Shown here: positions 30,990 through 34,118 of the stretch, in pieces
Numbering within the stretch: the stretch's first letter is position 1
How the letters are laid out: each line of letters begins with the position of its first letter
Source: Roseitalea porphyridii
GTDB lineage: Bacteria > Pseudomonadota > Alphaproteobacteria > Rhizobiales > Rhizobiaceae
Assembly: GCF_004331955.1 (NCBI RefSeq)
Contig: NZ_CP036532.1
Span: 1,922,001-1,986,000 of the forward strand
DNA: 64,000 bases
Direction of reading: 5' to 3'
Translations under genes and position numbers: made by a program
The notes under the pieces: generated by a model
The model's input: only the letters and a program-made list of their open reading frames with translations
Told to the model about the DNA's origin: nothing
Databases searched by the model: none

Positions 30990-31085
30990 TCAGACCAGCC
31001 GGCTCTGCGCGACGGCCGCCTCGATGAAGCTGGCGAACAGCGGGTGCGGGTCGAACGGACGCGACTTCAGTTCGGGGTGATATTG
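30990..31085 (-). pseudogene. Second copy of the pyrG 3' end (96 bp)
   Basis: This segment matches 32490-32585, the end of intact pyrG including the stop codon, at 92 of 96 bases. It encodes the same final residues ([11 protein letters not shown] to AQSRLV) because all four differences fall in third codon positions. There is no pyrG sequence before it. It lies exactly 1500 bases from the functional copy, with the nuclease gene in between, so it reads as the displaced old end of pyrG or the footprint of an insertion. Confidence 0.92.
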
Positions 31086-31137
31086 ATCTTACATCGAGGA
31101 AGTCTGATGATATCCGCGGGGTGGTATGGGGGAGACA

Positions 31138-32487
31138 ATGCGACCAGAATATTTATCACAGGGCGAAGAAGCTCGCCTCTTTCCAGTCCTTTCGACAACT
31201 TCCAAAGAAGGTCGAACAACGTCGATTGTCCTTGCCTGCTTGTCACTGGTGGACGAGTTCGCGCAGGCTTTGCTGAAGACCGTTTCGCAGCGCCCGGGAA
31301 AACGAACGAAGATCGAATGCTTCACCGAAGTTGTCTTCAAAGGACAGAAGCGGGCGAAGGTGGAGCGTCCCGATGGCTTGATTGTTCTGACGACCGGGCC
31401 GCGCGTTTGGAAAGCGCTCGTCGAGGCAAAGGTCGGAAACACGAAGATCAACCCGGAGCAGATCGAAAAATACAGGACCATTGCCAAGGATTTCGGAGCG
31501 GACTGCGTCATCACGATCTCGAACCAGTTTGCCACGCGCCCGGACCATCATCCGGACGATGCCGTCCGCAAACAGCGATCGAAGATACCCGTCTTCCACT
31601 GGTCGTGGATGAAGATCCTGACTGAGTGCGATCTGCTTATCAGCAATGAGACGGTGCAGGATTCCGAGCAACTCCTCCTGATGAAGGAACTGCGGCGCTT
31701 TCTGACGCACGAAAGTGCAGGGGTGAGAGGGTTTGACCGGATGCCGCCGGAATGGAGCGCGGTCAACAAGCTCATTTCGAACGGCGGGAAGCTTCCGGCA
31801 CGCTCCCATGAAGCCGAGATTGTTATCGATGCCTGGCATCAGGAGACGAAAGACCTATCGCTCATTCTCAGTCGTCAGACGGAAACGGCGGTTACAGAAA
31901 GACTGTCGCGAAAGCACAGCAAAGACCCGACGCAACGACGCAAGGACGAACTGGCATTACTGAGGGAGCAATGTCAGCTTCGGGCCGAACTGCAGATCGA
32001 GAATGCGGCGGCGCCCATCCAGGTTACCGCCGATCTGGCCCGTCGTACCGTCGATGTCGGGATGTCGTTGCGAGCGCCCGACGACCGGAAGTCGGCAAAA
32101 GCCCGACTGAATTGGCTGCTGCGCCAGATTCGCGGCGAGGCCAGCGATGATCTGCACATCAGGCTTAACTGGCCTGGCAGGAGCGATCCAACGCAGTTCC
32201 CTTACACGGAACTGGTTCAGGACCCCGCGATTGTCGAGGAAGGGAAAGAGGGCCTCACCGTCTACAGTTTCGACGTGTTCCTGTCCAAGAGGCTCGGAGC
32301 GCGGTTCATTCAGCAAACGAACTTCATCAGCGAGCTTGAGAGCCTGGTACCGGACTTCTATCGCAAAGTGGGTCAGAACCTCACGGCATGGCAGATGAAG
32401 CCGCCCAAAATCCGCGAGGAGAAGAAGGAAGCTGAGGACGTATCGGTCGAAGCGATAGCGGAACTAGAGCGACCGGAACCTGGTTGA
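31138..32487 (+). CDS. PD-(D/E)XK-like nuclease, candidate defence or stress protein, inserted at pyrG
   Basis: A 449-residue protein whose N-terminal part carries a nuclease-like motif series: Glu64 (FTEVVFK), Asp79 (RPDGLI), Glu96-x-Lys98 (VEAKVG) and QxxxY (QIEKY, from residue 108). The pattern fits the PD-(D/E)XK fold with a QxxxY helix. The remaining 300 residues are unassigned and end in a charged tail. ATG 31138 has GGGGGAG upstream; ATG 31126 would add four residues. Its base composition is poorer in GC than pyrG and the GGDEF gene. It is bounded by two copies of the pyrG 3' end; only two bases separate its stop from pyrG. No methylase or integrase is near. Function is inference. Confidence 0.7.
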   Translation: MRPEYLSQGEEARLFPVLSTTSKEGRTTSIVLACLSLVDEFAQALLKTVSQRPGKRTKIECFTEVVFKGQKRAKVERPDGLIVLTTGPRVWKALVEAKVGNTKINPEQIEKYRTIAKDFGADCVITISNQFATRPDHHPDDAVRKQRSKIPVFHWSWMKILTECDLLISNETVQDSEQLLLMKELRRFLTHESAGVRGFDRMPPEWSAVNKLISNGGKLPARSHEAEIVIDAWHQETKDLSLILSRQTETAVTERLSRKHSKDPTQRRKDELALLREQCQLRAELQIENAAAPIQVTADLARRTVDVGMSLRAPDDRKSAKARLNWLLRQIRGEASDDLHIRLNWPGRSDPTQFPYTELVQDPAIVEEGKEGLTVYSFDVFLSKRLGARFIQQTNFISELESLVPDFYRKVGQNLTAWQMKPPKIREEKKEAEDVSVEAIAELERPEPG

Positions 32488-32489
32488 AT

Positions 32490-34118
32490 TCAGACCAGCC
32501 GGCTCTGCGCGACCGCCGCCTCGATGAAGCTGGCGAACAGCGGGTGCGGGTCGAACGGACGCGATTTAAGTTCGGGGTGATACTGCACGCCGATGAACCA
32601 GGGATGGTCTTCATATTCGATCGTCTCGGGCAGCACGCCGTCCGGCGACAGGCCTGACACCGTCAGGCCGGCGTCCTCGAGAGCCTGTTTGTATTCGATA
32701 TTGACCTCGTAGCGGTGCCGGTGGCGTTCGGAGATGTGCGTGTCGCCGTAGATCCCGGCGATCCTGGTCCCCTCGCCCAGCATGGCTTCGTAGGCGCCAA
32801 GACGCATCGTGCCGCCCAGATCGCCCTCCACGGTGCGCTTCTCGAGCATGTTGCCCTTCAGCCACTCGGTCATGATGCCGACGACGTTCGTGCCCGGCTT
32901 TTCGAATTCCGATGAAACCGCGTCCTCGATGCCGGCCAGATTGCGCGCCGCATCGAGCACCGCCATCTGCATGCCGTAGCAGATGCCGAAATAGGGCACC
33001 TTCTTCTCGCGCGCGAAGGTGGCGGCGCGGATCTTGCCCTCGGCGCCGCGCTCGCCGAACCCGCCCGGGACGAGAATGCCGTGCACCTTGTGCAGGTAGG
33101 CGGCGGGATCCTCTGAATCGAAGACCTCCGATTCGATCCACTCCAGATGCACCTTCACACGGTTTGCGATGCCGCCATGGTGCAGCGCCTCGATCAGCGA
33201 CTTGTAGGCATCCTTCAGGCCGGTGTACTTGCCGACGACGGCGATCGTCACATCGCCTTCCGGATTGTGGATGCGCTCGCAGACCTCGTCCCAGACCGCC
33301 ATGCGCGGCTTCGGCGCCGGCTCGATTCCGAACGCGGCGAGGACCTCGGCGTCCAGCCCCTCGTCGTGATAGGCCTTGGGCACGTCGTAGATGTTCCTGA
33401 CGTCGAGCGCCTGGATGACGGCGCTTTCACGCACGTTGCAGAACAGCGACAGCTTGCGGCGCTCGGCCTCGGGGATCGGCCGGTCGGCTCGCACCAGGAG
33501 GATGTCGGGCGCGATGCCGATCGAGCGCAGTTCCTTGACCGAATGCTGGGTCGGCTTGGTCTTCAGTTCGCCGGCCGCCGACACGTACGGCATCAGCGTC
33601 AGATGGACGTAGACCGCGTTGCCGCGCGGCAGATCGTTGCCAAGCTGGCGGATCGCTTCCATGAACGGCATCGCCTCGATATCGCCGGCGGTGCCACCGA
33701 TCTCGCACAGCACGAAGTCGTAGCCGTCATTGCCGTCGAGAACGAACTGCTTGATCTCGTCGGTGACGTGCGGGATCACCTGCACGGTCGCGCCCAGATA
33801 GTCGCCGCGCCGCTCCTTGGTGATGATGTTCTGGTAGATGCGCCCGGTCGTGATGTTGTCGTACTTGTTGGCCGACCGGCCGGTGAAGCGTTCGTAATGG
33901 CCAAGGTCCAGATCGGTCTCGGCGCCGTCGTCGGTGACGAACACCTCGCCGTGCTGGTACGGGCTCATCGTGCCCGGATCGACGTTGAGATAGGGGTCGA
34001 GCTTTTTCAGCCGCACCGAATAGCCGCGCGCCTGCAGCAGCGCGCCCAGGGCGGCCGAAGCGATACCTTTGCCAAGCGATGAGACCACGCCACCGGTGAT
34101 GAAGACGTACCGTGCCAT
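32490..34118 (-). CDS. pyrG: CTP synthase
   Basis: Converts UTP to CTP with glutamine as nitrogen source. The 542-residue protein has the synthetase domain ([29 protein letters not shown]) and a C-terminal glutamine amidotransferase domain with nucleophile Cys in FGICYGMQ and the His-Glu pair in QYHPEL. It is full length. Its last 96 bases occur again at 30990. Usual rhizobial neighbours kdsA and eno do not follow; a nuclease gene is there instead. secG and tpiA lie upstream in the same direction. Confidence 0.97.

Follow-up and report, generated by a model that had tools for sequence, protein, structure and literature searches.

The pyrG gene of the window, by which we mean the whole 64,000-nucleotide stretch of Roseitalea porphyridii DNA that was analysed, is followed by a 1.5-kb unit that contains a single nuclease-like gene and ends in a second, slightly diverged copy of the pyrG 3' end. 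On balance, we think that this unit is probably a one-gene, defence-type nuclease cassette, which lies behind the pyrG stop codon, has no recombinase of its own and entered the chromosome by an exchange of gene ends. Some related genes, and several defence genes at other loci, are likewise bounded by gene ends. This pattern suggests a way into genomes in which the end of a housekeeping gene is exchanged and no integrase is carried along.

A repeat search found that the two copies of the pyrG end form a direct repeat of 96 bp with a spacing of 1500 bases and 96% identity (Table 1). This pair is by far the longest repeat within positions 29000-35000, and a blastn comparison of the two flanks of the nuclease gene gave E = 2e-41. 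The inner copy is the end of the intact pyrG gene, and the outer copy comprises the last 31 pyrG codons and the stop. On one side the repeat is limited by the pyrG stop codon, and on the other side it breaks off abruptly at 31085/31086. Together with the open frames, the repeat search bears out an earlier sequence-only reading of this DNA, which had described two pyrG ends 1500 bases apart with one gene between them and no integrase in the unit. The nuclease gene is indeed the only gene there: the open frames of the unit include no integrase and, there being no second gene, no transposase, and the repeat search showed no inverted repeats of at least 20 bp that pair the unit ends. The G+C content is 0.57 in the unit, compared to 0.64 in pyrG and 0.67 in the next gene, and the third-position G+C is 0.68 in the nuclease gene versus 0.87 in pyrG. 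The start of the nuclease gene at 31138 was preferred over that at 31126 because it lies 10 bp inside the start of the homology with locus L033 and has a purine-rich stretch ahead of it. The names pyrG, guaA, rimO, parE, oxidoreductase, GGDEF/EAL and DUF6134 were given by eye from the translations unless a family hit is cited.

Table 1. Features of the pyrG region (window coordinates).
Feature	Position	Strand	Basis
Outer (displaced) pyrG-end copy, followed by the native downstream flank	30990..31085	-	Sequence, repeat, contiguity in L006
Junction and leader of the nuclease gene	31086..31137	+	L033 homology starts ~10 bp before 31138
PD-(D/E)XK-like gene, 449 aa, RPDG..ExK..QxxxY; alternative start 31126	31138..32487	+	Invariant residues
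Functional pyrG 3' end copy, 2 bp from the nuclease stop	32490..32585	-	Sequence, repeat
Intact pyrG (CTP synthase), anchor gene	32490..34118	-	Name by eye
GGDEF/EAL-type gene, downstream neighbour of pyrG in the empty site	28764..30908	-	Name by eye

The copies differ at four positions (31014/32514, 31065/32565, 31068/32568 and 31083/32583). As the sequence-only reading had noted, all four are third codon positions, and all four changes are synonymous. That reading went on to conclude that both ends had evolved under selection as functional pyrG ends. Four synonymous differences out of four do point in this direction (p ~0.02 if the copies started identical and the outer one drifted freely), but with only four differences the conclusion exceeds the data.

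Four congeners (G001, G002, G003 and G004) were compared at pyrG. In G002 (L006) the nuclease is absent, and window positions 29487-31085, i.e., the flank and the outer copy, are one contiguous match with 73% identity, pyrG itself being matched by window positions 32494-34167. Since the flank and the outer copy are contiguous in this genome, the outer copy occupies the native junction, and a relative with the empty site, for which the sequence-only reading had proposed to look, has thus been found. In G003 (L004) no nuclease was found within 1.5 kb of pyrG. The GGDEF/EAL-type gene of the window and of L006 is missing from L004, and sequence from behind that gene lies close to pyrG there. In G004 (L005, which lies in full and without a mismatch within L033) the nuclease is present at pyrG, its protein being 79% identical to that of the window, and the outer copy is absent. 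G001 gave no match to pyrG.

Neither copy of the pyrG end is clearly nearer to the relatives. The outer copy differs at 6 positions from L004, the nearest relative, and the inner copy at 7; the corresponding numbers are 12 and 11 for L033 and 16 and 13 for L006. The comparison of the copies with relatives that had been proposed gave a divided answer. The native junction fits the earlier idea of a resident outer copy and an imported inner one, but L033 and L006 are closer to the inner copy, and we do not regard this assignment as established.

The 96-mer occurs twice in its own 3.54-Mb genome. When 297 genomes of the host family were searched and the best three candidates per genome were scored, 222 of them, the own genome included, had a match, and a second copy beside pyrG was seen in the own genome only; diverged extra copies could escape because no more than these three candidates were scored in each genome. 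G490 and G628 have two matches each, located on separate contigs, the second of which is weak. Neither the repeat without the gene nor a repeat running past pyrG, the two outcomes that the sequence-only reading had named as contrary to its own view, was seen in the congeners or in the 297 family genomes.

In 25 aligned sequences of the nuclease family, the residues D79, E96, K98, Q108 and Y112 are invariant (numbering from the start at 31138). We take the arrangement D79, E96-x-K98 and Q108xxxY112 to be the pattern of a PD-(D/E)XK nuclease of the RecB-like kind, and the window protein is accordingly labelled here a putative PD-(D/E)XK-like nuclease, the label coming from conserved residues and not from a family hit. 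Weak matches to VRR_NUC in 6 of the 25 members (best E 0.015), the window protein not being among them, agree with this reading. The AlphaFold2 model of the protein turned out to be too poor to use (mean pLDDT 57), and a Foldseek search with this low-confidence model gave no match at E <= 0.001. Searches of Pfam and PADLOC with the window protein, and of NCBIfam with its family, returned nothing useful, and no curated family that names the protein was found in these three collections. It had no match in the phage records searched and nothing at a useful E-value among PDB sequences.

Relatives of the nuclease are present in 22 of 385 genomes of a class sample and in 12 of 398 genomes of a phylum sample, the own genome being included in these counts. 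Two are found on viral contigs; the flanks were compared for both and one was placed in the tree. Matches were also obtained in 11 plasmid records of Streptomyces and Rhodococcus, ten of them annotated as a TerD family protein and one without annotation. The relative on the Rhodococcus plasmid pRZP3 (L158), annotated as TerD family, lies near RES, ThiF and Mov34/MPN genes. In three loci (L080, L081 and L138, with Pfam run for L138 only) an ion-channel gene directly precedes the nuclease homologue, and this pair at guaA may be a two-gene defence system. Judging from the company of genes in which it is found, the nuclease probably serves in phage defence.

We compared the two flanks of the nuclease gene with each other in 29 loci and counted repeats within 2 kb at E < 1e-6. 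Direct repeats flank the nuclease in 6 of the 29 loci, compared to 2 of 100 control centres, which lie in these loci, several to a locus, and were run under identical settings (Fisher p = 0.0016). The window had been chosen because of its repeat; if it is left out, the count is 5 of 28. The other repeats, which like that of the window were named by eye, are the end of guaA in L080 and L081, two loci that are close kin and non-independent; the end of a DUF6134-like gene in L086, where the copies are 99% identical over the aligned parts; a terminator in L093 (46 bp, 100% identical); and the end of an oxidoreductase in L096 (27 bp and a diverged stretch). The remaining 23 loci have no repeat within 2 kb, and none was found in further nuclease loci with short flanks. 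A 27-bp repeat in L036 lies 3.3 kb off and was left out of the count. In L086 a small open frame is located between the nuclease and the displaced end, and its start resembles, by eye, an excisionase- or AlpA-like HTH.

Several of these repeats seem to have diverged as coding sequences, though unevenly. The displaced oxidoreductase end in L096 reads KTETTKAMVRG and the functional one DKTETAKAKAMVRG, with a 6-bp difference that is in frame. The stretch in L081 is unmatched over its first ten codons; of the eight codons that have changed further on, seven are synonymous or stop-to-stop and the eighth is nonsynonymous. In L080 both copies are displaced ends; beyond the first two codons, 12 codons differ synonymously and 2 nonsynonymously. 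We had considered the upstream guaA copy of L080 as the intact gene and rejected this, as it is a fragment and the locus contains stacked displaced ends behind an intact gene.

The nuclease tree groups the two pyrG loci (support 100/99), the three guaA loci (100/99) and the two oxidoreductase loci (100/100). The four rimO loci are grouped with a lower support (94/88), and L036, which is in tandem with rimO, falls outside this group. The hosts within each single-anchor clade are themselves related, so that fidelity to the anchor can be explained by descent. Upstream of the nuclease, the rimO loci share sequence in just one of their six pairs, L034 and L078.

The guaA gene was surveyed in 61 genomes of genus g485, the genus of G763, which belongs to the same phylum as the window and to another class, by inference the Gammaproteobacteria. 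The guaA end was matched in 59 of the 61 genomes, and at least 12 of the 61 contain a second, partial guaA end of at least 100 bp that runs to the stop. Eleven of these second ends are on the guaA contig at a distance of 1.2 to 12.8 kb, and that of G1056 is on another contig; other genomes of the genus contain shorter or broken guaA pieces. G1029 (L150), from another genus, has two stacked displaced guaA ends of 406 and 177 bp with different cargo, as would be left by repeated insertions at one gene.

A comparison of 14 displaced ends from 12 genomes (11 of g485 and G1029; G1056 was excluded) with their functional counterparts shows that 169 of the 269 differences fall in third positions, although the bias is uneven, from 27 of 30 in G1089 to 1 of 5 in G1063. 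In all 12 loci no more than 10 bp separate the limit of the repeat from the guaA stop codon. The inner limit of the 14 ends is abrupt and lies 110-543 bp before the stop, and owing to this variability no fixed attachment core is evident at guaA; pyrG offers a single event. When each pair was compared with its nearest relative, the displaced end proved the more distant of the two in 13 of 14 cases, a result that is confounded by decay of the displaced ends. Unless such decay explains it, this finding argues against a simple displacement of the resident end.

From the guaA intervals, 70 open frames were listed and 42 of them were run against PADLOC or Pfam. In PADLOC, 16 of 20 proteins matched a model; 5 of the 20 come from L142, L146 and L147, which have short or broken downstream guaA pieces only, and the result is 12 of 15 when these three loci are excluded. 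These 12 matches are to Qat, Olokun, type I RM, PDC-S05, a type II methyltransferase with a DpdB-like gene, cll and QueC. Pfam identified zeta toxin, RES, GmrSD and ion channel in the guaA intervals, and HipA in G1029; RhuM is among the cargo of cassettes that lack the nuclease of the window family. There is no integrase among the 30 guaA-interval proteins run against Pfam. Two transposase-type genes are present in the guaA intervals, and the L135 interval contains ordinary metabolic and regulatory genes as well. The readable guaA intervals thus often contain defence or toxin genes. The expectation that other cargo would be found between gene-end copies is therefore borne out at guaA, but none was found at pyrG.

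In the exchange that we favour, the donor would be a piece of the chromosome of a close relative carrying the pyrG end and the nuclease. The incoming DNA would recombine with the resident pyrG via homology on the pyrG side, and its far side would be attached by a non-homologous join some 96 bp upstream of the stop codon of the resident gene. This would leave pyrG, which is essential, whole and a spare end outside, and the nuclease would be selected cargo and not the driver of the move. We are led to this proposal by the diverged but synonymous repeat, the empty site in L006 and the nuclease at pyrG in L033 (G004); by the excess of repeats around the related nuclease genes over the control centres and the in-frame difference in the displaced oxidoreductase end; and by the defence and toxin cargo at guaA, which has the same layout, variable inner limits and no integrase in the Pfam set. 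The proximity of the functional guaA ends to relatives, the lack of a clear ranking of the pyrG copies, the L033 gene that has no outer copy, the majority of nuclease loci in which no repeat was found, and the example of e14, where an integrase can leave the same signature, speak against it. For the pyrG cassette, neither a donor sequence nor homology at the junction was seen. We propose, more tentatively, that the exchange of gene ends may be of general importance, as a means of bringing small defence cassettes to positions behind housekeeping genes in the absence of an integrase, at pyrG and guaA and possibly also at rimO, parE and others. Each cassette would carry the 3' end of its anchor gene. 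Homology within this end would guide the cassette to the corresponding position whenever it enters a new host, and the insertion would itself repair the essential gene.

Our initial favourite was a different explanation, in which the nuclease would act as a free-standing homing endonuclease. A pyrG gene without the cassette would be cut near the QYHPE codons, repair of the cut would spread the nuclease, and the altered pyrG end would protect the carrier. The outer copy begins at these codons, which we take to be conserved in pyrG, three of the four differences are located within its first 21 bp, the nuclease clades are faithful to one anchor gene, and nuclease-related genes abut pyrG, rimO and parE. 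However, the wider relatives of the nuclease have mixed neighbours, no junction motif in common could be recognized by eye, and guaA cassettes that lack the nuclease and contain zeta toxin, RhuM, Qat, Olokun or type I RM instead have the same layout. As other cargo leaves the same trace, homing is unlikely to be the general cause, and we regard it as very improbable for the pyrG unit as well. A plain insertion with a long target duplication, in which one pyrG end was copied at insertion and diverged later, is somewhat less doubtful, but still improbable. The length of the repeat, its variability and the link to defence genes fit the published pattern as given in the accessible parts of PMC3874152, and the copies in L086 and L093 are near-identical. 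The lack of nonsynonymous changes at pyrG is not what such a history would be expected to give, albeit judged from only four differences, and in several cases the displaced guaA and oxidoreductase ends are orthologue-like.

The cassette could also have been inserted into an attachment site in the pyrG 3' end by a site-specific integrase that either acted in trans or was lost later. It would then carry the missing gene end, as e14 does at icd. We consider this possibility unlikely, but one to be taken seriously. The icd locus with e14 shows the same signature, the repeats extend as far as the stop codon, integrases are known to target guaA according to the accessible part of PMC4844618, and functional guaA ends that are closer to relatives fit an element carrying the outer end. 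On the other hand, no integrase is present in the unit or among the 30 guaA-interval proteins in Pfam, no second island of the pyrG-end type was seen in the 297 family genomes (best three candidates per genome), and the guaA inner limits of 110 to 543 bp differ from the 11-bp repeats that the same source, as far as accessible, gives for Tn5801.

How defence genes move without an integrase or a transposase is an open question, for which diverged gene-end copies are a readable fossil: they mark the limits of the moves and point to a testable mechanism. The pyrG and guaA cases provide a simple sequence signature for locating defence cassettes and their anchor genes across genomes. We found no description of the same layout in the literature on islands at pyrG, on guaA as a hotspot or on defence islands that lack an integrase; few subscription papers were covered, and this is weak evidence of novelty.

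The pyrG unit is close to two known arrangements, insertion with long target duplication and the end swap of e14 at icd. Nobusato in 2000 and Furuta in 2010 reportedly described the insertion of restriction-modification genes with long target duplication. According to the accessible parts of PMC3874152, PMC1643837 and PMC3031569, these insertions are small defence cassettes in the chromosome, which are flanked by direct repeats in the range of 100 bp that differ in length from case to case, and which are not linked to any known mobile element. The pyrG unit resembles them in the order of the repeat length, in the variability between cases and in being a defence-type cassette. Unlike them, it consists of a lone nuclease-like gene without a methyltransferase, and its repeat consists of the 3' part of a gene up to and including the stop codon, with synonymous differences only, in the manner of orthologues. 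Because it has one gene and no methyltransferase, we do not class the unit with these insertions, although it may work alike.

In E. coli MG1655 (L159), the icd repeat of e14 has 165 coding bp, 216 bp in all, and 87% identity, and 11 of the 12 coding differences are at third positions. The element brings in a diverged coding 3' end, keeps the gene whole and leaves the other end on the far side, as we propose for pyrG. However, e14 is 15 kb long with an annotated integrase and excisionase, whereas the pyrG unit is 1.5 kb long and consists of a single gene that is not a recombinase. Beside the displaced icd end, as the final annotated gene of e14, lies the restriction gene mcrA, so that a nuclease and a spare gene end are neighbours there as well. 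Phage 21 has the same arrangement of the icd end as e14. The Tn5801-like elements at the guaA 3' end, which bear an integrase according to the accessible part of PMC4844618, resemble the pyrG unit in that they, too, have inserted where a conserved housekeeping gene ends. Their repeat of 11 bp is different, however, from the 96 bp found at pyrG and from the guaA ends of 110-543 bp described here.
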